From Marinoscillum furvescens DSM 4134 (GTDB lineage Bacteria > Bacteroidota > Bacteroidia > Cytophagales > Cyclobacteriaceae): a DNA stretch of 64,000 bases. The notes beneath the pieces are model-generated. The model was not told the DNA's origin. It saw only the letters and a program-made list of their open reading frames with translations, and made no database searches. The stretch lies in assembly GCF_003386095.1 (NCBI RefSeq), contig NZ_QREG01000017.1, positions 62,001-126,000 on the forward strand, in the 5' to 3' direction. The position numbers and the translations under genes were made by a program. Shown here in pieces: positions 47,826 through 63,116 of the stretch (its first letter is position 1; each line of letters begins with the position of its first letter).

Positions 47826-50800
47826 ATGGAACCTAAGCCCAGCCAGGATCAATCTGCAGAATCCCAACCTCAAGATATAGACGAACATCATCGAGAAGGT
47901 CTTTCTGACGCGGAGCTTTATGAAAAGCTTCTTCATATTCGCAATGGAGATTTTTCCGTTCGCTTTCCCGTAGGTGAAACAGGACTAACCGGAAAAATCT
48001 GCGATACCCTCAATGAAATCGTGGAAATGAACGAGACCATGTGTACAGAAGTGACACAGGCTCGTGACATGATCGGGAAGCGAGGGAAATTCACCAAAAA
48101 AGTAGAAATACCCGGAGCCAAAGGTTCTTGGCAAACATCCACAGATGCAGTAAACAACCTGATTTCTGATCTGGTGCAACCATTTATGCAGATCGCCATG
48201 GTGATCAGCTCAGTGGCAAAAGGAAACCTTTCGGAGGAAATGCCTTTATCCATTGATGGACACCCGCTAAGAGGAGAGTTTTTGCGCATAGCCAAGGATG
48301 TAAATGCCATGGTAAAACAGCTTAACCTGTTTTCCATGGAGGTAACGCGTGTGGCTACAGAAGTAGGTACTGAAGGTAAGCTCGGTGGTCAGGCCAAAAT
48401 CAAGGGCGTGGCAGGGGTTTGGAAGGACCTGACAGACAGTGTAAATCAAATGGCGGGTAACCTTACTGCTCAGGTTAGAAATATCGCCGAAGTGACCACT
48501 GCAGTAGCACAAGGAGATTTGTCTCGGAAAATTACTGTGGACGTACGAGGTGAAATCGCCCAGCTCAAAGACACCATCAATACCATGGTGGATCAGCTCA
48601 ATAGTTTTGGTTCGGAGGTAACTCGGGTGGCTCGTGAAGTGGGCTCGGAGGGAAAGCTCGGAGGACAGGCGAATGTACCTGGTGTGGCAGGTACCTGGAA
48701 AGACCTCACGGACAGTGTAAACCAAATGGCGGGAAACCTTACGGGCCAGGTGCGAAATATCGCAGAAGTGACCACAGCAGTTGCTAAAGGGGACCTTTCC
48801 AGGAAAATTACGGTAGACGTAAAGGGAGAAATCGCTGAGCTCAAAAACACGATCAACACTATGGTGGACCAGCTCAACTCCTTTGCTTCCGAGGTGACAC
48901 GTGTGGCCCTGGAAGTGGGCACAGAAGGGATACTGGGCGGACAGGCCAAGGTACGTGGTGTAGGCGGTGTGTGGAAAGACCTTACGGATAGCGTAAACCA
49001 AATGGCCAGCAACCTGACTTCACAAGTGCGAAACATCGCAGAAGTGACTACAGCTGTTGCCAAAGGAGATTTGTCCCGAAAAATTACAGTAGACGTAAAA
49101 GGTGAAATTGCTCAGCTCAAAGGCACCATCAATACCATGGTGGATCAGCTCAACAGCTTTGGATCTGAGGTAACTCGTGTAGCGCGAGAGGTGGGCTCTG
49201 AAGGAAAACTCGGTGGTCAGGCAGATGTGCCGGGTGTGGCAGGTACCTGGAAAGACCTTACCGACAGTGTAAACCAGATGGCTAGCAACCTGACCGACCA
49301 GGTGCGAAACATTGCTGAAGTAACCACTGCAGTAGCCGAAGGTGATCTTTCTAAGAAAATCACCGTGGATGTGGAGGGCGAGATTGCGGAGCTCAAAAAT
49401 ACGATCAATACGATGGTAGATCAGCTCAACAGCTTTGGCTCGGAGGTAACTCGTGTGGCTCGAGAAGTGGGGTCTGAAGGTAAGCTTGGAGGGCAAGCCA
49501 ATGTGCCCGGTGTAGCAGGCACATGGAAGGATCTGACCGATAGTGTAAACCAAATGGCCGGCAACCTTACCGATCAGGTGCGAAACATTGCAGAGGTAAC
49601 CACAGCCGTGGCAAAAGGTGACTTGTCCAGAAAAATTACAGTGGATGTAGAGGGTGAGATAGCCGAGCTTAAAAACACCATCAATACCATGGTGGAGCAG
49701 CTCCGATCTTTTGCATCAGAGGTGACACGTGTAGCCCGGGAGGTTGGTACTGACGGAAAGCTGGGAGGACAAGCAAATGTGCCTGATGTGGGGGGAACCT
49801 GGAAAGACCTCACAGACAGTGTAAACCAAATGGCCGGCAACCTTACTGATCAGGTACGAAACATCGCCGAGGTAGCTGTGGCAGTAGCCAATGGGGATTT
49901 GTCACGAAAAATTACCGTGGATGTTCGAGGTGAAATCTTACAACTCAAAGAAACCATCAACACCATGGTGGATCAGCTGCGTGCCTTTGCTGCAGAGGTG
50001 ACGCGTGTAGCCCGGGAGGTGGGTACAGATGGTAAGCTAGGAGGCCAGGCCTTTGTGCCAGGTGTGGCAGGCACGTGGAAAGACCTTACCGACAGTGTAA
50101 ATCAAATGACTGGAAACCTCACCGATCAGGTACGAAACATCGCTGAGGTGACCAAAGCGGTGGCTAGTGGTGACCTTTCTAAAACTGTAACCATCGATGT
50201 GAAAGGGGAGATTTTGGACCTGAAAAATACCATCAACACGATGGTGGATCAGCTCAACAGTTTTGCTTATGAGGTGACCCGAGTAGCACGTGAGGTTGGT
50301 ACTGAGGGCGAGCTGGGTGGTCAGGCCAATGTACGAGGCGTGGCAGGAACCTGGAAAGACCTTACCGACAGTGTAAATATGATGGCATCAAACCTTACGA
50401 GTCAGGTGCGTGGAATAGCAAAGGTGGTGACTGCCGTAGCCAATGGTAACCTTCGCCAGAAGCTGTCCATTGAGGCGAAAGGAGAGGTAGCCTCTCTCAC
50501 CGAGACCATCAACGAAATGATAGACACCCTTGCTGTATTTGCAGATCAGGTGACCACAGTGGCACGTGAGGTAGGGGCTGAAGGTAAGCTGGGAGGACAG
50601 GCCCATGTGCCGGGAGCTTCAGGTATTTGGAAAGATCTCACTCAGAATGTAAACCAACTGGCTGCCAACCTTACCACCCAGGTTCGGGCGATTGCAGATG
50701 TAGCAAGCGCTGTAACAAAAGGTGATTTCAGTGGAACGATTAATGTAGGTGCTAAGGGAGAGGTAGAGGCTCTGAAAGATACCATCAATCAAATGATTGC

Positions 50801-53543
50801 CAATCTGAAGGCAACTACTACTCGAAACGAAGAGCAAGATTGGCTTAAATCCAACCTGGCCAAATTCACTCAGATGCTGCAAGGGCAAAAAGAGCTTGGA
50901 AAAGTGTCTGAAAAAATTCTCAGCGAGCTGGCTCGGGTGATTTCTGTACAGCACGGGGTTTTTTACATACTCGAAAACAATCAGGAAGTACCAAAATTGA
51001 AGCTACTGGCTTCCTTTGCGGCAGAGAAAAAAGAAAATCTGGTTCAGGAATACCGTCTGGGAGAGGCACTGATAGGTCAGTGTGCACTTGAAAAAGAGCG
51101 TATTATGCTTACCAATGTGCCTTCAAATTATCTGAAAATCAGTTCAGGCCTTGGTAAAGGGCGGCCGGTCAACATCATTGTTTTTCCGATCCTGTTTGAA
51201 GGAGAAGTAAAAGCTGTGTTTGAATTGGCATCATTTTCAGAATTTAGCCAGACTCATCTCAACCTACTGGAGCAACTCACAGTAAGTATTGGTATCGTGC
51301 TCAACACCATAGAGTCCAACACCCGGACTGAAGAACTCCTGGGGCAATCTCAGAAACTGGCTCAGGAACTTAAAATGCAGCAGGAAGAATTGCGCGTGAC
51401 CAATGACGAACTGGAAGAAAAGGCAACCTTACTTGCCAAACAAAAAGAAGAGGTAGAGAAAAAGAATCAGGAAATTGAATTTGCCAAAAAATCTCTGGAG
51501 GAAAAAGCCGCACAGCTTACCATTACCTCGCAGTATAAGTCCGAGTTTTTGGCCAATATGTCGCACGAGCTGCGTACACCACTCAACAGTTTGTTGATGC
51601 TTTCTCAGCAGCTGAAAGAAAACAGTGAAGGCAACCTCAGTGACAAGCAAGTCAACTATTGTGAAATCATTCATTCATCAGGAAGTGAGCTGATCAACCT
51701 GATCAATGACATATTGGACCTTTCCAAGATTGAGTCAGGAGTAGTTACGGTAGACATTGCGCCGATATTTTTCTCTGATATCCTGGACTATCTCAAGAGT
51801 TCTTTTCAGCACATGGCTGATTATAAAGATTTGGAGTTTGAGATCGATGTAGCCAGCGATTTGCCTTCATTTATCGAAACGGATATTCAGAGATTAAAGC
51901 AAATTCTGAAAAACTTACTATCCAATGCCTTCAAGTTTACCGAAAAAGGCTCCATTTCGATCAGCGTATATACTGTGGATGAGCTTTATGGTGAGGCGCT
52001 GGATACCAACCAATTGTATGCTGCTTTTAAGATAAAAGATACAGGTCTGGGAATATCTAAAGACAAGCAGCGCATCATCTTCGAGGCATTTCAACAAGCC
52101 GAAGGATCTACCAGTAGAAAGTATGGAGGTACCGGACTGGGGCTTTCTATCAGTCGTGGACTGGCAAATCTGCTGGGAGGTTTTATTGATCTGGAAAGCG
52201 AACTCAACAAAGGGAGCATCTTTACACTGTATTTACCACTCAAGACACATAGCTACAGCCTCTCCGAAACAGAAGAGCTAATGCCAAAAAATGAAGTGCT
52301 GCTATCGCCGCCTGCAGAGGCAACCAACAGCGAAATAGTGGCACCCTCTGCCGGACAGAGTGCGGTCATTTCTGATGATAGAAAAGACATAGCTACGTCA
52401 GACGATGTGATTTTGCTTATCGACAATGAGGTGCGTACGTCCAAATTGCTCACCGGCGAAGTGCACAGGTACGATGCGAAAATCATTATCAGTGACAATT
52501 CGAAGAACATTACGCATCTGCTCTATGAATTCAAGCCCGTTGCCATTGTCGTCAATTTTGATACTGGAGATCTCATAGGACAGAAAATTCTCAATCAGAT
52601 CAAGACCAACCTGGATTTGAGGCATATTCCTACAGGGATTATCGCCAAGACTTCCGGGCATTTTGATATCAAAAAGTATGGTCACACGTTTATGTCCAGG
52701 ACTTCTGAGGAAGAGGACATAAAGGAAATGATGAAACGACTCATGAGCTACGTGGAAAAGGATACACGAAGGCTGCTGGTTGTTGATGCTGATGATAAAC
52801 GATTTGCACGCTTTAAAGCTGCGCTGAATGATACGGGAGTAAAACTGATCAGAAGTACTCCTGAGGAGTTGAAAGCTATAGATCCCCATGATTTGGATGG
52901 AGCAGTGGTGAGTATGGACCATGCGTCCATTGCAGAGCTCAAAGAGCTAAACCAGAAAAACGCCCATGTGCCGCTTATTGTAAGCTGCTCTAAGCCGCCT
53001 TCGAAAACATCCATGAAAGAACTCACAGAACTAGGGCAGGCAGTAGTGATTGGCAATGGATCTGCAGATCACAGGTTGATCGATCAGTTGGTGCTCAACA
53101 TGCACATCCCTTTTCAAAGCCTCTCCAGTGAAGGTCAGGATATGGTTAGCCGGGTGCATAACTCCAAAGACTTTTTGCAGGACAGAAAGATACTGATCGT
53201 GGATGATGACATCCGCAATATTTTTGCACTCACCTCTATTTTTGAGCAATATCAGAGCAACATCTTTTCTGCAGAAGGAGGTAAGAAGTCATTAAAAGTT
53301 TTACGCAAACATCCAGATATGGATGTGGTGCTGATGGACATCATGATGCCAGATATGGATGGCTATGAAACTATCAGAAAGATCCGAAGGATGGAGGAGT
53401 TCGAGTCGTTGCCCATTATAGCGGTGACAGCAAAAGCGATGCCCGAAGATCGTGAAAAGTGTATCAAGGCTGGGGCGTCAGAGTACATAACCAAGCCTAT
53501 AGACACAGAAGAGTTGATTTCAATTATTAAATACTTTGTATAA
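47826..53543 (+). CDS. Giant hybrid histidine kinase with poly-HAMP array
   Basis: 1905 residues, with no signal peptide or membrane helix, so cytoplasmic. Order: short N-terminus; tandem HAMP domains about 35-1000, including nine 92-residue units each holding two HAMPs ([19 protein letters not shown] type and [19 protein letters not shown] type); GAF-like domain about 1010-1160; coiled coil about 1175-1235; HisKA with His1247 in [12 protein letters not shown]; HATPase with DTGLGIS and [10 protein letters not shown]; two degenerate receiver-like domains about 1515-1780; and a full receiver with Asp1838 in [12 protein letters not shown]. The architecture recalls poly-HAMP group III hybrid kinases of fungi, which sense osmotic stress. 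A receiver-kinase gene follows nine bases later. Confidence 0.95.
48333..50810 (+). repeat. Nine tandem 276-base repeats encoding HAMP pairs
   Basis: The codons for WKDLT recur at 48420, 48696, 48972, 49248, 49524, 49800, 50076, 50352 and 50628, exactly 276 bases apart each time, with no insertion or deletion in nine units. Inner units 3-6 are the most alike at the base level; the last two diverge. Exact length conservation keeps the helical phase of the HAMP stack. Confidence 0.97.
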
Positions 53544-53552
53544 GGCTCCGAT

Positions 53553-54797
53553 ATGCCCGTAAAAATATTAATAGTAGACGATCGCGAGGAAAACCACCTT
53601 TCGCTAAAATCGGTGTTTGAGCATACCAACTACACCTTTGTGGATGCTTATTCGGGAGAGGAGGCACTCAAAGTGCTGTTGGAAGATACCCAATTTACCT
53701 TGATCATCATGGATGTAATTATGATCGGGATGGATGGTTTCGAGACGGCTTCCTACATCGTGCAGCGAGAGCGCTTACGCAACATCCCGATTATCTTTCT
53801 CACAGCTCGGGATACTGAAAATCAGATTTTCAGAGCCTTTGACCTGGGTGCTGTCGACTACATCAGCAAGCCTGTAGTGCCAGACCTGTTGAGAGCCAAA
53901 GTAAAAGTATTTGTAGAGCTCAGTAGGAAAAACCTGGAATTGGAACGACAAAAGCACAAACTGAAGTTGATGAACCAGGAGCTCATTACTGAAGTGCAAG
54001 AGCGTAAATCTTCAGAGTTGAAAATCAAACAACTCAATGATCAGCTAAGTAGTCGCTTGCGCGAGCTCGAAGCATTGGATGCATTTTCCTATTCCGTAGC
54101 TCATGACTTTAAAACTCCCCTCAACAACATCGCTATGATTGCACATATCCTCAAACGAAATGCATGTGTTCAAAATGATGAGGAGGCCAGTGACCATGTA
54201 GAGAAAATTGATGGGCAAATTGGGTTGCTCACTAGTCTAGTAGATGATTTGCTGATATTTTCGAGAGATGATGTGGTGATCAAGCGCGAAATGGTGGACA
54301 TGTCCAAAATCGTGAGACAGGTGATAGAAGAGCAAACTTTTGCCTATGGCGGAGCTAAAAACTATCAAATAGAAGTGAGCGATCTCCCGGAGGTATACTG
54401 CAATCCTGGTCTGATCAAGCAAGTTTGGTCAAACCTGCTTTCCAATGCTTTTAAATATAGTAGCCATCGGGAAAGACCCGAAATTGCGATCACACATGAA
54501 GAGGAGGAAGAGCTAGCGATTTTTTCGGTTACCGATAATGGTGTTGGGTTTGGAGAAGAAGAGTCTCACAATTTGTTTAAAGTATTTAAGCGGCTCGATT
54601 CCGCTAGTGGATTTGAGGGTACAGGTGTAGGACTGGTGCTGGTAAAGCGAATTATCGAAAAGCATGGTGGAGAAATCTGGGCAGAATCCCAACCGAATGT
54701 TGCCACCAGGTTTACTTTTTGCCTGTGCCAGCAAACCAATGGAGTTTCTACCATGCAGACTAAGTCCACAGAAAGTATAAACCGGCGTTATAATTAA
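53553..54797 (+). CDS. Receiver-histidine kinase protein (reverse hybrid)
   Basis: 414 residues, soluble. Receiver domain 1-125 with acidic VDDREENH, phospho-acceptor Asp54 in IIMDVIMIGMDG and Lys in YISKPV; a coiled coil about 128-170; HisKA with His184 in YSVAHDFKTPLNN; HATPase with LLSNAFKYSS, DNGVGF and GTGVGLVLVKRI. A receiver ahead of the kinase suggests that phosphate arriving from a partner controls the kinase. The partner is most likely the giant hybrid kinase encoded nine bases upstream, whose terminal receiver resembles this one. It ends at a hairpin. Confidence 0.94.
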   Translation: MPVKILIVDDREENHLSLKSVFEHTNYTFVDAYSGEEALKVLLEDTQFTLIIMDVIMIGMDGFETASYIVQRERLRNIPIIFLTARDTENQIFRAFDLGAVDYISKPVVPDLLRAKVKVFVELSRKNLELERQKHKLKLMNQELITEVQERKSSELKIKQLNDQLSSRLRELEALDAFSYSVAHDFKTPLNNIAMIAHILKRNACVQNDEEASDHVEKIDGQIGLLTSLVDDLLIFSRDDVVIKREMVDMSKIVRQVIEEQTFAYGGAKNYQIEVSDLPEVYCNPGLIKQVWSNLLSNAFKYSSHRERPEIAITHEEEEELAIFSVTDNGVGFGEEESHNLFKVFKRLDSASGFEGTGVGLVLVKRIIEKHGGEIWAESQPNVATRFTFCLCQQTNGVSTMQTKSTESINRRYN

Positions 54798-54866: not shown

Positions 54867-56309
54867 TTAGTAACCTTCCTGAGCACCTATGTCAAAAGCA
54901 CCACCATCTGGTCTGCCCCGGCCGTAGATGTCATCCAATATGCCAAAGGAACTAAGGTCTGCACCCGCATCTACTACACTGCCAAGTCCCAATATGTCTT
55001 CTACGCTTTTTACCAACCCATAGATTGATAAGTTCGGAACGTCATTGGTAAACACATTATTAGAAGCTTCCAGCTCAGCACCATTTTTCGTAAGTGTTCC
55101 GGCATTTGCTACCAGATTGTTGACAAATCGTTTGGGGCCACCATCGTTGTTGTAAAACACAAATCCATATTTCTGCGAATTGATCACGGAATTGTTCATG
55201 ATGTTGAAATAACCCTCTTTGAGGCGCTTTACATATTTGCCATGACTAGCGTAGATGCCGTGTTCACCGGAGTTGTAGAAGATATTATTATAGATATCCA
55301 GGTTTCCAATGCCTTGAATCTGGCATCCATTGCCAGTTCCGGTATCTACCAGGTTGTTGTAAAACTTTCCAGTGGTGCCTTCACCTATGAATAGTCCTTC
55401 ATTGTGTGCAGAGTGATTTTTTGTGCCGTAGTTTCGTATCACGTTGTTGTACACGCGCACATTTTGATTGGCATTTTTTATCTGAATACCATCATAGCCT
55501 ACATTTTCGATCAGGTTGTTGTAGATCTTTACCCCTCTGATGGAGTGACTGTAGGTTATAGCGGGGCATTTGCTTTCTTTTCTGCCGGTATAAAACCCAT
55601 GGCCCATGTAGATGCCTTCTCCACCTGTGTCGTGGATATAGTTGTCGTGGATGCTAATGTCTCGCATAACCCAGGCTTGGCGGGTGTGGTCAGTAAATAA
55701 CTCACAGTCCTGATAGGGGCTGGTCTTCACGCCTATGCCTGCAAAGCCTGCACGGTCTCCTTTGCCTTCAGGTGTACTGCCTGCTACTTCTATTCGTGCC
55801 ATTTCTACATCTGTAGTGAAGCGTTCCATGGTCACATAAAACCCCTTTTCAGTAGTCACACGGATGCCGTATTGATCGTCTGTGCCATCTCCGATGAGTT
55901 TAAAATCCTTACTGTTTTCAAATTTTAAGCCGAATGATGCGTCGGAGTATATCTTGGCTATTCCTCCACAGTTTCTAATGATCACAGGGTTGTTTCGGGT
56001 ACCTACGATGTTGCGAAACACCAATCGATTGTAGTCTACAGATGCATCCAAACAGATGATATCTCCTGGCTGGATGTTGAGCTGCGTGCCGTCGGTTACA
56101 TAGTTGTTTACTACATGATCACAGTCCGCGCATGTAGTTGAGGTGGAGGGGGAGTATGAAGCGCTTTCGGTATTAGGACTTGCTTCGGTGGAGATTTCCT
56201 GCTCGTTGGCCATGTCACATTGCGTGAAAAGAAACGGGAGGGTGAGAATAAGCGAACATATCAGAGTTGTTACGTTGCGTTGCTGTCCATTGCTGTTGTT
56301 CTTTTTCAT
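54867..56309 (-). CDS. Right-handed parallel beta-helix lipoprotein
   Basis: 480 residues. Lipoprotein signal ending LFTQC (Cys about residue 31), then a Ser/Thr/Glu-rich linker (about 32-60), then a CxxCDH motif (CADCDHVVNNYV), then a pectate-lyase/NosD-like parallel beta-helix with repeated Asn-rich coils (IHDNYIHDTGGEGIYMGHGF, VRVYNNVIRNYG, LDIYNNIFYNSGEHGIY). Such folds bind or cleave polysaccharide; a catalytic site cannot be named by eye. The ladder Gly-Asn-Gly in GTGNGCQIQG is strongly conserved with the next gene. It faces away from the kinases and sits within the polysaccharide region. Confidence 0.9.
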   Translation of the reverse strand: MKKNNSNGQQRNVTTLICSLILTLPFLFTQCDMANEQEISTEASPNTESASYSPSTSTTCADCDHVVNNYVTDGTQLNIQPGDIICLDASVDYNRLVFRNIVGTRNNPVIIRNCGGIAKIYSDASFGLKFENSKDFKLIGDGTDDQYGIRVTTEKGFYVTMERFTTDVEMARIEVAGSTPEGKGDRAGFAGIGVKTSPYQDCELFTDHTRQAWVMRDISIHDNYIHDTGGEGIYMGHGFYTGRKESKCPAITYSHSIRGVKIYNNLIENVGYDGIQIKNANQNVRVYNNVIRNYGTKNHSAHNEGLFIGEGTTGKFYNNLVDTGTGNGCQIQGIGNLDIYNNIFYNSGEHGIYASHGKYVKRLKEGYFNIMNNSVINSQKYGFVFYNNDGGPKRFVNNLVANAGTLTKNGAELEASNNVFTNDVPNLSIYGLVKSVEDILGLGSVVDAGADLSSFGILDDIYGRGRPDGGAFDIGAQEGY

Positions 56310-56787: not shown

Positions 56788-58056
56788 TTAGGGAGAAAGT
56801 TGATTGTTGCTGAGTAAGTATTTTTGCACGCGTTCCACGATCTGGTGATTGCTGATGCCTGTGCCTTTCAGCTGAATGATTTCAGAAGATGCCAATGCCA
56901 GGTTTGTAGACAAGGTATTGTCTTCAAAGGAGGCTTCACACCCTTCTTTGGTGGGTTTCTTGCTTAAAATCAGGTTTTGAGACACGCGCTTTTCACCACC
57001 TTTTTCATTATAGAGCACCAGGCCCGCATTATGGGCCATGAGTATGGTGTTGTTATGAATGTCAAAAGCCCCATCAGGTAATCGTACAACATATTTGCCA
57101 TGAGTGGCATAAATGCCATGTTCACCAGCATTTAAAAACAGGTTGTTGTGCAATTCAATATTTCCAAGTCCCTGAATCTGGCAGCCATTGCCTGTTCCCG
57201 TGTCGATGATGTTGCCATAAAACTCGCCCGTGGTGCCTTCACCAATAAATAGCCCTTCATTGTGGGCTTTTTTGTTTTTTGTGCCGTAGTTGAGAATGGT
57301 GTTTTTAAACACCTTTACATCCCTGTCTGCATTTTTGATTTGAATACCATCGTAGCCTACGTTGGCTATTTTGTTGTGATGGATCCTTACTCCCCGAATG
57401 CTGTGCGAATAGCGCTTTCTGGAATCCTTGCATTTTGGTTCGGGCCTGCCTTTATAGAAGCCATGGCCAATATATAAGCCTTCTCCACCAATGTCATGAA
57501 TGTAGTTGTCATGTATGTGGATGTTTTTCATGACCCAATCCTCCCGGTTTGGATCCAAAAACCGAGTACAATCCTCGTAAGGACTTGTTTTGGCAGCTAT
57601 GCCTGCAAAACCTGCACCGGCGCCTTTTCCATTGGGGTTGGTTCCACGTATTTCGATGTTTTCTATTTCAAAATCAGAGGTAAAGCTTTCCATGGTGAGG
57701 TAAAACCCCTTTTGGGTAGTGATGACTATCCCATATTCATGAGTGTCACTTCCCGTGCCAGACAGCTTGATGTGTTGGCTGTTTTGAAACTTCATGCCAA
57801 AGGCATTCTGAGCATAAATACGTGTTTGACCGTTACAGTTTTGAATAGTAATAGGCTGCTCACTAGTTCCTTGGAGATTTTTGAGGGTAATGCGTTTGTA
57901 TCGTCTGGGTGCCAGGCAGATAACATCGCCTGGTTGTACATTCTGTTTGCTACCATCAAACACATTGGAAGAAATGAGGTGATCGCATTCGGTGCATGGT
58001 AGTGCCTCCGCAGGAGTCAGCAATGTAGAAGCGATTAGTATAAAAAGAGAGATCAT
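56788..58056 (-). CDS. Secreted parallel beta-helix protein, paralogue of its neighbour
   Basis: 422 residues. Signal peptide ending PAEAL, directly followed by CTECDHLISSNV, the same CxxCDH motif as in the neighbour but without the lipid anchor and linker. The beta-helix shares most coils with the 54867-56309 product: DGIQIKNADRDVKVF, GTKNKKAHNEGLFIGEGTTG, GTGNGCQIQGLGN and GEHGIYATHGKYV. It lacks the C-terminal Gly/Asp-rich segment seen in the neighbour. The pair is therefore one anchored and one released form of the same fold. It lies just upstream of the sugar transferase on the opposite side of a hairpin. Confidence 0.9.
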   Translation of the reverse strand: MISLFILIASTLLTPAEALPCTECDHLISSNVFDGSKQNVQPGDVICLAPRRYKRITLKNLQGTSEQPITIQNCNGQTRIYAQNAFGMKFQNSQHIKLSGTGSDTHEYGIVITTQKGFYLTMESFTSDFEIENIEIRGTNPNGKGAGAGFAGIAAKTSPYEDCTRFLDPNREDWVMKNIHIHDNYIHDIGGEGLYIGHGFYKGRPEPKCKDSRKRYSHSIRGVRIHHNKIANVGYDGIQIKNADRDVKVFKNTILNYGTKNKKAHNEGLFIGEGTTGEFYGNIIDTGTGNGCQIQGLGNIELHNNLFLNAGEHGIYATHGKYVVRLPDGAFDIHNNTILMAHNAGLVLYNEKGGEKRVSQNLILSKKPTKEGCEASFEDNTLSTNLALASSEIIQLKGTGISNHQIVERVQKYLLSNNQLSP

Positions 58057-58141: not shown

Positions 58142-59182
58142 TCAAACTGCCTCTTTCTGAAGCATAGCTGGTATTGTGTTGATCAGCAATCGCATGTCAT
58201 AGATCATAGAATGCTTTCGAGCATACTCGATATCCAGATTGATGCGTTCTTCATCACTCATATCGTCTTTGCCCCGTTTGGTGACCTGCCATAGTCCGGT
58301 CACACCTGCCGGAGCCAGAAATCGCTTGGCCACCTCATCCTGCGTTAGCTGTTCGGCTTCATACAGCGGTAGTGGTCGGTTGCCCACGATAGACATGTCA
58401 CCTTTGAGTACATTAATGAGCTGTGGCACTTCATCCAGACTCGTCTTGCGCAAAAAACGACCAAATGGGGTGACTCGTGGGTCGTTTTTGATCTTGATAA
58501 AAATGCCATCACCATACTGGTTGTGAGTGGAAAGTTGCTGCAGACGGGCATCAGCATCCTGGTACATAGATCTGAATTTGATGAAAGGAAACACGTTGTA
58601 GTTATGACCTGCACGTCTGGAGACATAGAAGATGGGTCCTCTGGACTCTAGCTTGATGATAAGCGCAATCAATAAGAGGAGAGGAGAAAGCACGATCAGC
58701 GCACTGGCCGCTACCAGGATGTCAAACATGCGCTTTGCGGGTGGGATTTTCACCCCTGCAGGTTCTTCGACAGGTTCTTCTTCGGTGTCTTTGTATTCTT
58801 TCATTTTTTGAATCATATCGAATTTCCGCTCCAGGTTGTCGCTTAGTTTACCGAAGTGGTAGTCATCAAACTGGTATGTGGTGGCTACTTCTCTGGCCTC
58901 AGCATCTTCCTCCACACTGTAGAGCACTATCGGCAGAGCGAGATTGTCGGCCTTGTCTTTAATCTCACCAAATTTGGCATGCTCTTCCAGCCCTGAGCGG
59001 TATAAAACCGTAATGGCTGTTGGTTCCATTTTTTCAAGTGCTTTGGGCGCTGCTGCGATATCTATACACGTAAAATCCATGCCTTTGAGGTGAAATTCAC
59101 TTTTGATGTGAACTTCGTGACCTACTACCCACATCACATTGTGGGGGTGTTGAGGAGAGTTTTGCTGGTTGTGATTATACAT
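58142..59182 (-). CDS. Initiating phosphoglycosyltransferase with N-terminal receiver-like domain
   Basis: 346 residues. The C-terminal part (about 145-346) is a WcaJ/WbaP-type bacterial sugar transferase that moves a sugar phosphate to undecaprenyl phosphate, starting a polysaccharide repeat: one re-entrant helix (about 155-178), [15 protein letters not shown], the catalytic Asp-Glu pair in [19 protein letters not shown], and GNRPLPLYE. The usual four-helix or NTP-binding N-terminus is replaced by a soluble domain (about 15-125) with receiver-like alternation of strands and helices but no phospho-acceptor Asp at the expected place (ITVLYRSG). It overlaps the stand-alone receiver gene by eight bases. 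Confidence 0.93.
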
Positions 59183-59564
59183 GATTTGCTTGGTTTAAGG
59201 TTTGATCAATAGTTTCCAGAAGTTCTTCCGGGTTAAACGGCTTAGCAACGATGCGCTCGATGTTCCAGATCTGGGCGTGTTCTTCCAGGTCAGGATCTGA
59301 ACTGCCCGTAAGCACCACTATAGGGATGTCTCGAAACAGCCCGCTGGTGCGCAGGTTTTCAGTAAGCTCCATACCATTGACGAATGGCATTTTAAAATCC
59401 GTAAGGATAAGGTTTGGGAAATTGCCGGCACTAAGCCAGTCCCAGGCGTCCATAGAATTATGAACAGCATGTACCTGATAGACAGGCTCCAGGTAAGTAG
59501 TGAGTAGTGCACACAGCGCTGTGTCATCTTCTACTATCAAAATGGTGTTTTTTGCGCCTTCCAT
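59175..59564 (-). CDS. Stand-alone response regulator linked to the sugar transferase
   Basis: 129 residues from ATG 59564, since MEGAKNTILIVEDD is the normal receiver start; an upstream in-frame start at 59651 would lie before the likely transcript. Acidic VEDDTALC, phospho-acceptor Asp56 in LILTDFKMPFVNG, Thr/Ser VVLTGSSD, Lys in AKPFNPEEL: all active-site residues are present. There is no output domain. The eight-base overlap with the phosphoglycosyltransferase implies coupled translation and probable physical contact with its receiver-like domain. Confidence 0.92.
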   Translation of the reverse strand: MEGAKNTILIVEDDTALCALLTTYLEPVYQVHAVHNSMDAWDWLSAGNFPNLILTDFKMPFVNGMELTENLRTSGLFRDIPIVVLTGSSDPDLEEHAQIWNIERIVAKPFNPEELLETIDQTLNQANHV

Positions 59565-59624
59565 GGTTGTGATCTTCGTTGGGTTTAGAGGTATTGGCTT
59601 ATCGTTTTTCTGATGATGACGATT

Positions 59625-59632
59625 CAAAGCTA
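59625..59632 (-). promoter_or_regulatory. -7 promoter box for the receiver-sugar transferase operon
   Basis: The minus strand reads TAGCTTTG, a full TAnnTTTG match 60 bases upstream of ATG 59564 and identical to the box of the beta-helix lipoprotein gene. It favours the shorter start. Confidence 0.45.
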
Positions 59633-59742
59633 AGGCGCTCTTGTACACCATTGAATGATGCAGTGGTTACATAAGAATTACCCTACACCTTACACTTCAA
59701 TTACAAGATAAAATCAATGATTATCAAGCCATTAGCGCATTC

Positions 59743-62116: not shown

Positions 62117-62151
62117 CAGGCGCCTGTAGTTTCAGGCGCCTGTTTTTTTTT
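62117..62151 (+). terminator. Rho-independent terminator after the co-polymerase gene
   Basis: CAGGCGCCTG, loop TAGTTT, CAGGCGCCTG, then nine T. The T tract touches the stop codon of the convergent sulfotransferase gene. Confidence 0.93.
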
Positions 62152-63116
62152 CACCACCAGTGGCTCAGGTTTTTACCTGTTAGTTTTTGTAAGTTTTGGA
62201 TGTCCTCACCGTAGATGTCCCGAGTAAGTATTTGCTTGATTTCTGGATCCATGGCTGGTTTTTCCAGGTTACGCTTCCTAAGCTTTACAAGTAGGCTTTG
62301 CAGCTGTGGACTTTCTTTTAGCTCTTGATAGTACTTGCCAAACACGCGTTTAGACAGCTTTGGCAATAAGCCATGGTTGCCGATAAGTCCGTCCAACGAT
62401 TTGTTTTTCACAATGCCTGATTGATTAAGGGCCACGAGTTTATCTACCTGAAAGTCTGTATCTACGCCTAAAAATGCATAAATGTCTTTTAACACTTCGG
62501 GGCCATTTGCCTTGAATTCGTCAAACAGGTATACCTTAATTTGGTCTGCACCAAAGAGCTGGTAATACCTGCTGAGGTTTTTGTAGTAAAAGCCTTCACG
62601 TATGAGATCGTTTCGTTTCCACCAAATGCTGCTTTGGTCCAGACAATCAGAAAAGTGACGAGTTGGTAGCCGGTTTTCACGTGCCAAATGCATGTACCTG
62701 GACCATAGGCGTTCTGCGGGTTGTCTGAAAATGGCTATTAACTTCATGTTTGGATTGTGATAGCGAATACGCTCAGGAGCCATTTGGTGGTACAGGTAAG
62801 TGTTGGAGGTTTCGCCGCTCACTTGTTCGGAAGTGGCCCCATCAAATAGTGTCTGGTAGTCTTCCAGATTGGTGACGGATTGCCGGTAGTGCCATTGTTC
62901 TCCTGGTCGTGCCGCCAGGTCTGCTTCAGAGAGCATTTCATACCCAAAGAAGTTGGGTTCCTTTACCGGGGAAATATAGATTTCGGGGTGTTGTTTCAAG
63001 TAGTTGTCGAGAGATGTGGTACCGCACTTACCAGCCCCAATCACCAAAAAGTCTGGCATCCATTCATGGGATTTTTGAGTGTATAGCTGATTGTCTTTCG
63101 CTTTAGTGGCTTGCAT
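62151..63116 (-). CDS. PAPS-dependent sulfotransferase
   Basis: 321 residues, soluble. Transfers sulfate from PAPS to a hydroxyl or amine, here most likely on a polysaccharide. Seen: the 5'-phosphosulfate loop VIGAGKCGTTSLDNYL at about residue 25-40, the 3'-phosphate motif MKLIAIFRQPAERLWSRYMH, and SPVKEPNFFG, together a bacterial heparan-type sulfotransferase arrangement. The neighbours on both sides are polysaccharide export genes, supporting a sulfated surface polymer. PAPS synthesis genes are not in the window. Confidence 0.93.
   Translation of the reverse strand: MQATKAKDNQLYTQKSHEWMPDFLVIGAGKCGTTSLDNYLKQHPEIYISPVKEPNFFGYEMLSEADLAARPGEQWHYRQSVTNLEDYQTLFDGATSEQVSGETSNTYLYHQMAPERIRYHNPNMKLIAIFRQPAERLWSRYMHLARENRLPTRHFSDCLDQSSIWWKRNDLIREGFYYKNLSRYYQLFGADQIKVYLFDEFKANGPEVLKDIYAFLGVDTDFQVDKLVALNQSGIVKNKSLDGLIGNHGLLPKLSKRVFGKYYQELKESPQLQSLLVKLRKRNLEKPAMDPEIKQILTRDIYGEDIQNLQKLTGKNLSHWW

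Follow-up and report, generated by a model that had tools for sequence, protein, structure and literature searches.

In the 64,000-nucleotide stretch of Marinoscillum furvescens DNA analyzed here (the window), a small-type monotopic phosphoglycosyltransferase (PGT) carries a degenerate receiver at its N-terminus, and its gene overlaps that of a complete stand-alone receiver. We propose that the pair is a two-component output acting directly on an enzyme, in which the lone receiver probably docks via helix α3 on the pseudo-receiver of the PGT and switches initiation of polysaccharide synthesis. For the family as a whole we lean, with somewhat less assurance, toward a broader reading: pseudo-receivers serve as sockets in a Bacteroidota-wide PGT family, α3 docking switches initiation without transcription, and cis, trans and socket-less forms interchange.

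The PGT gene (58142..59182, minus strand) is an ORF of 346 aa. Residues 150–341 form the catalytic domain (58160..58735, minus strand), which matches PF02397 in a Pfam profile search (E 1.2e-60). Both the DX12P motif of the re-entrant helix (D154...P167) and the D250-E251 dyad, whose roles are described in the passages of PMC12802240 cited here, are invariant in a 27-row alignment of relatives. The AF2 model of the enzyme, built from 27 rows (pLDDT 82.2, pTM 0.62), lacks an N-terminal TM bundle, and Foldseek matches its catalytic part to PglC (8e37, TMt 0.80). By catalytic domain, motifs and bundle-less model, the window PGT is a small monotopic PGT of the PglC type. Assignment to the large monotopic PGTs (WbaP/EpsZ type) was rejected: at 346 aa the protein has neither the four-helix TM bundle nor the WbaP-type DUF, and hhalign gives a probability of 0.9 for the pseudo-receiver profile against the N-termini of 22 large PGTs.

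Immediately upstream lies the stand-alone receiver gene (59175..59564, minus strand), assigned from its PF00072 match and conserved adjacency. Its ORF can be read from further upstream (59175-59651, minus strand, 158 aa), and the inner ATG at 59564, which gives a product of 129 aa, is near the receiver start in relatives. The product matches PF00072 with E 4.6e-21 and 75.5 bits (cut-off 30.2) and has all of the key residues (E, D, D56, T and K); by these features it is a receiver domain. The codon of D56, the phospho-acceptor, occupies 59397..59399 (minus strand), in a column that is Asp in 301 of 314 partnered receivers. As the original prediction had it, this complete lone receiver overlaps the PGT gene by eight bases (59175..59182, minus strand).

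The PGT N-terminus is a pseudo-receiver, homologous to receivers and devoid of the phosphotransfer residues. In a profile search, residues 1–149 matched no family in Pfam or NCBIfam. Nine members of the 27-relative alignment do match PF00072, and since an intact fused receiver occurs in 3 of the 27, at least six of these nine matches come from degenerate domains. Profile-to-profile comparison by hhalign of 139 pseudo-receivers with 157 stand-alone receivers gave a probability of 99.8 and an E value of 3e-29. In the AF2 model, residues 14–133 (58784..59143, minus strand) have the receiver order of strands and helices, with α1 not predicted, and below the PGT matches the Foldseek list consists mainly of receivers. 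The window domain has an acid at none of the five key positions, where it reads G, H, L, S and G; a second alignment places a gap at the third. Profile comparison, predicted fold, structural matches and key positions thus confirm the earlier claim of a degenerate receiver without a phospho-acceptor Asp at this N-terminus.

The same division holds throughout the family. Among the 314 partnered receivers, 281 keep all five key residues (two acids, the Asp, T/S and Lys) and 13 lack the Asp; all five are also present in each of the 9 receivers fused in cis and in 20 of the 21 next to PGTs without a socket. Among 325 pseudo-receivers, none has four or more of these residues, 64 have an Asp at the phospho-site and a single one combines Asp with Lys. 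Function lost in the fused domain and retained in the neighboring receiver is therefore the rule.

These counts come from loci gathered by PGT similarity alone, which were thus not selected for the presence of a receiver, and all family counts refer to a part of the matches listed. Among the matches listed, 51 of 59 relatives had one at 1e-3, and searches gave 98 at 1e-40 for 291 genomes of the order and 62 at 1e-38 for 395 genomes of the class; in other orders, 300 and 22 genomes gave 193 and 7 at 1e-42, and 348 and 64 genomes gave 93 and 24 at 1e-43. A scan of named genomes kept 80 loci of 588 relatives. The 423 loci analyzed comprise 384 from the family and 39 with other PGTs; removal of 15 identical PGTs left 369 family members. 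Three loci with ORFs cut short (L052, L062 and L074) were placed in the family regardless of score, and L001–L003 and L032–L033 were left out of the family analysis. Four of the 369 are uninformative, L172, L052 and L295 with a broken or unclear frame and L364 at a contig end; L074 was counted as a receiver without a socket and L256 as having neither.

Among the matches listed, 325 distinct PGTs carry a pseudo-receiver, and 314 of these have a receiver gene on the same strand no more than 152 bp upstream, with a median gap of 6 bp and overlapping genes in 95 pairs. The remaining 11 have no receiver within 300 bp, although two of them have one at 503 and 643 bp; for 9 of the 325, no receiver was found in the locus DNA examined. 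An intact receiver is fused in cis in nine PGTs, none of which has a separate receiver gene (Fisher p 1.3e-12). Of the PGTs without an N-terminal domain, 21 have a receiver next door and 10 do not. The degenerate domain thus accompanies a separate receiver, the intact fused receiver stands without one, and the 21 PGTs with a receiver and no pseudo-receiver indicate that the socket is not obligatory. No receiver gene was found by any of the 39 PGT loci outside the family; chance adjacency was ruled out on this comparison (314 of 325 against 0 of 39), and the adjacency, whose lack of conservation would have contradicted the original prediction, is conserved. All 41 named family loci belong to Bacteroidota, including Pedobacter, Mucilaginibacter, Chitinophaga, Flavobacterium, Hymenobacter, Dyadobacter, Prevotella and Bacteroides fragilis, and all 35 named non-family loci come from other phyla.

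Several loci depart from the common arrangement. The cis-fused intact receivers are those of L102, L104, L109, L111, L082, L079, L050, L047 and L368; in L082, a small protein that is HPt-like by motif match is encoded 200 bp upstream, which hints at a phosphorelay. Six loci (L083, L094, L099, L101, L103 and L178) have a PGT without an N-terminal domain and no receiver in the locus DNA examined, and in these control seems to have been lost as a whole; the L094 PGT is identical to a Roseivirga PGT, and L178 is Algoriphagus. In L052 and L172, the frame of the pseudo-receiver PGT is interrupted, by an in-frame TGA in the former and probably by a frameshift in the latter, with a receiver gene upstream in each. 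L060 (2372-5248 in reverse-complement coordinates; G215 contig 33) has an ORF of 958 residues in which ~600 extra N-terminal residues precede the pseudo-receiver and PGT; the preceding ORF resembles a MoxR-type ATPase by eye, and a receiver is on the other strand. In Bacteroides fragilis (L169:2727-4253), receiver and pseudo-receiver PGT follow one another without a gap, the receiver α3 has H-N-E-L-F instead of S-S-G-F-Y, and by eye the two ORFs that come next resemble a membrane protein of glycosyltransferase type and an acetyltransferase.

Where would the two domains touch? Across 314 receiver/pseudo-receiver pairs (Neff 249 at 80% identity), receiver α3 with pseudo-receiver α5 is the top of 110 blocks of structural elements, both by plmDCA (26.7; next block 18.6) and by a mean-field calculation (24.5; next 16.9). 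When pairs were shuffled 60 times among close relatives, the largest value of any block was 24.4, which the mean-field score exceeds only narrowly (z 2.7); two weaker blocks, α4 with β2 and β2 with α3, have z of 2.8 and 3.0 against their own nulls. In a 223-pair run shuffled within coarse clades, α3 with α5 scored 21.7, and the highest value among 40 shuffles was 20.6. Receiver α5 with pseudo-receiver β1, in the top three with 223 pairs, is absent from the best 8 of 110 blocks with 314. Covariation of either the receiver or the pseudo-receiver with the PGT domain gave scattered pairs and no readable interface.

The clearest single pair of columns shows charge swaps. Receiver column 66 and pseudo-receiver column 117 bear opposite charges in 103 pairs and like charges in 4 (weighted, 61.8 and 4.0, with 30.8 and 28.7 expected). 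No other of the 423 column pairs in which 50 or more rows are charged at both positions has so high an opposite share. The opposite pairs divide into 76 of +/- form and 27 swapped to -/+, and the window has the swapped form: receiver E69 in α3 (codon 59358..59360, minus strand) is the proposed partner of PGT R119 in pseudo-receiver α5 (codon 58826..58828, minus strand). On the PGT tree, the signs of columns 66 and 117 change 12 and 11 times, and their joint state only 14 times. Independent pairs on the best tree favor opposite charges 9:0 in 11 of 20 pairings and 6:0 to 8:0 in the others, 3 being undecided. Restriction to supported branches leaves 3 pairs (2.8:0), a number that cannot reach 0.05. 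Other charged pairs are weaker: 66-114 has 4 with and 1 against, and 75-114 has 3 with and 0–2 against.

Partnered receivers also tend to close helix α3 with S-G-[FLY]-[YF], which in the window is represented by the putative docking motif S74-G-L-F-R78 (59331..59345, minus strand). This signature of serine plus aromatic occurs in 263 of 314 partnered receivers, in none of 9 fused receivers, in 2 of 21 socket-less ones and in none of 45 other receivers from the same loci. On a tree built from PGT and receiver sequences with the motif columns removed, seven independent pairs on the best tree place the serine with the socket 7:0 in 26 of 30 pairings and 6:0 or 8:0 in the rest; supported branches alone leave 3 pairs (2.2:0, median p 0.5), which cannot reach 0.05. 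Loss of the α3 motif along with the partner domain is what docking predicts, with thin phylogenetic support.

A tethered AF2 fold is consistent with contact between the domains. From 59 loci with the two genes in frame, L280 placed first and intergenic stops read as Gly, receiver, linker and pseudo-receiver folded with pLDDT 91.2 and pTM 0.87 and with linker residues 132–145 disordered, in a single uncontrolled fold run. For two undocked domains of this size we would estimate a pTM near 0.5, so that AF2 appears to place both domains firmly. Foldseek fits the domains of this model singly to the PleD tandem, with TMq 0.41–0.42 and rmsd 13–15 overall, and the predicted arrangement thus appears to differ from that of PleD. 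Taken together, the data point to an interface of receiver α3 on the α5/α4-β5-α5 face of the pseudo-receiver.

We propose the following sequence of events. First, a histidine kinase or phosphorelay would phosphorylate the lone receiver (59175-59564) on D56. Second, the C-terminal part of its α3 would dock on the α5/α4-β5-α5 face of the pseudo-receiver, forming a physical complex in cells that may depend on phosphorylation. The pseudo-receiver would act as a socket that takes no phosphate and holds a detachable receiver, filling the role played elsewhere by the cis-fused intact receiver. Finally, docking would reposition the membrane-bound catalytic domain or alter its oligomeric state and thereby turn on the step in which the first sugar-1-phosphate is passed to undecaprenyl phosphate; that docking would activate the enzyme and not inhibit it we infer from the EpsW/EpsZ case.

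Helix α3 is not the classic phospho-responsive face of a receiver, and docking could therefore be constitutive. This gives the main rival to our proposal, which we regard as rather unlikely: the receiver would be a permanent subunit held through α3, and its free α4-β5-α5 face, when phosphorylated, would dimerize enzymes or contact the catalytic domain. We mapped the four charges of the OmpR/PhoB-type dimer onto the receiver columns, with positions 91 and 111 placed where we take them to lie. At least three of the four are present in all 21 socket-less receivers, in 5 of the 9 fused ones and in 151 of the 314 partnered ones, compared with 8 of 45 other receivers, and to this extent a dimerizing role fits. 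They are missing, however, from about half of the partnered set and from the window receiver, which has E91, E111, R101 and T115. The central Asp-Arg pair of such dimers is described in the passages of PMC4117788 and PMC2586830 used here. A second, phospho-dependent contact would also accord with the proposal that EpsW promotes an EpsZ dimer; against it, small PGTs are said to function as monomers (both in the cited passages of PMC12802240). Our own reading of the charge pattern is that the interface may have changed when the socket arrived.

The original prediction paired the two partners as a symmetric receiver-type heterodimer through α4-β5-α5 of both. Of this, docking of the receiver on the degenerate domain is supported by covariation, charge swaps, motif and AF2 model, and the symmetric geometry is not. 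Pseudo-receivers do retain what looks like the central dimer pair, with the acid at 101 kept by 315 of the 325 and the base at 115 by 305, and PleD is a precedent for pairing of a receiver with a pseudo-receiver. The symmetric face pair nevertheless has no excess covariation over the shuffled null in the 314 pairs (z -0.2), the dimer charges noted above are gone from roughly half of the partnered set, and the tethered model fits PleD domain by domain only. We therefore dropped this geometry as first choice; the present data disfavor it, and we consider it improbable.

An equally improbable explanation is mere co-transcription, in which the receiver would act elsewhere, as a phosphate sink or on a Wzz/Wzc-like protein, and the pseudo-receiver would be a passive stabilizer or would bind a ligand such as c-di-GMP. 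Binding of receiver to PGT is a prediction, which leaves room for such a role, and ligand-binding pseudo-receivers are known in ShkA and CikA (PMC12632262, in the passages cited). Exchange with cis-fused receivers in 9 of 9 cases, charge swaps between the domains and the rarity of the α3 signature where the pseudo-receiver is absent argue against it. Finally, we rejected a shortened WbaP/EpsZ-type nucleotide-binding-like domain at the N-terminus, the fold whose presence would have contradicted the original prediction, as very improbable indeed: both are α/β folds adjoining the same catalytic domain and Foldseek ranks WbaP 8t53 fourth, but hhalign gives 99.8 for receivers against 0.9 for large-PGT N-termini, and the model has no TM bundle and, below the PGT matches, resembles mainly receivers in the PDB.

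Within 12 kb of the PGT, the window encodes a GT2, a sulfotransferase, a Wzz-like protein and two β-helix proteins, along with a hybrid kinase and a receiver-kinase. The region thus resembles a locus for polysaccharide synthesis, with the two kinases as candidates. The hybrid histidine kinase (47826-53543, 1905 aa) has about ten HAMP-like repeats, GAF, HisKA and HATPase domains and a C-terminal receiver, and the receiver-kinase (53553-54797) follows it directly. Both are candidate upstream partners of the lone receiver, adjacency being no proof. In other loci, the kinase usually appears to be encoded elsewhere: among 280 with enough upstream sequence, a same-strand ORF of at least 90 aa lies within 350 bp of the receiver in 118, and by simple motif search 3 of these are kinase-like and 2 HPt-like, with one locus having both, so that a kinase-like ORF directly precedes the receiver in only 3 of 280. 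About eight loci have a further receiver 0.7–1.5 kb upstream that probably belongs to a hybrid kinase. In the window, two similar right-handed β-helix proteins (54867-56309 and 56788-58056) adjoin the PGT and possibly modify or bind polysaccharide; given the sulfotransferase at 62151-63116, the polysaccharide may be sulfated.

Control of a PGT by a lone receiver is already known, and in outline our idea is not new. Schwabe et al. (mBio 2025; PMC12802240) report that phosphorylated EpsW acts post-translationally on the large PGT EpsZ of Myxococcus xanthus, propose that EpsW promotes an EpsZ dimer and suggest, in the passages cited, that the idea may extend beyond myxobacteria. As there, the window has a single-domain receiver encoded in the locus of the initiating PGT, and by analogy direct, post-translational, allosteric control of initiation may apply. 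In contrast, EpsZ is a large monoPGT with a TM bundle and WbaP-type DUF, and EpsW is modeled on the DUF and catalytic domain in the same passages; our pair combines a small-type PGT with a pseudo-receiver, belongs to another phylum and has a different predicted interface. The NCBIfam models of EpsW/EpsZ orthology (NF041866, NF041877) likewise place it outside, at 48.3 of 200 bits (EpsW) and 172.8 of 800 (EpsZ). Receiver domains in small monoPGTs were described by O'Toole et al. (PNAS 2021), as cited in PMC12802240; in these forms receiver and small PGT are fused as in our nine cis-fused proteins, which may be among them, and the citing passage mentions no degenerate domain, separate partner receiver or cis/trans exchange.

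There are also parallels among pseudo-receivers. In PleD of Caulobacter, which joins receiver, pseudo-receiver and diguanylate cyclase, the phosphorylated receiver controls an enzyme through the pseudo-receiver (PMC12632262, in the passages cited); unlike the window pair, PleD is a single chain with a diguanylate cyclase output and an apparently different domain arrangement (TMq 0.42). The FrzS pseudo-receiver binds SgmX by α3-β4-α4, likewise an α3-side surface, which in FrzS belongs to the pseudo-receiver and here would belong to the receiver (PMC12632262). In the passages of Bourret et al. 2025 cited here (PMC12632262), no report is known of a receiver using its α3-β4-α4 surface, receiver/pseudo-receiver heterodimers are raised as a possibility and the mechanisms of pseudo-receiver regulation are called the central unanswered question. 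Among the matches listed, the open-access literature contains no Bacteroidota case of a receiver-controlled PGT, and within that literature the pseudo-receiver socket, the enzyme class, the spread through Bacteroidota and the interface appear to be new.

More broadly, the 325 distinct PGTs constitute a large natural set whose sequences alone reveal the partner, the candidate interface residues and the swapped charges, so that the question of pseudo-receiver regulation becomes a simple mutant test. The idea developed for EpsW and the large PGT EpsZ would extend to the small-type enzymes, and Bacteroidota such as Pedobacter, Flavobacterium, Chitinophaga, Prevotella and Bacteroides fragilis gain a candidate means of directly switching the committed step in making an exported polysaccharide. 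Many Bacteroidota appear to switch the first step of surface polysaccharide synthesis by docking a receiver on a built-in, dead look-alike.
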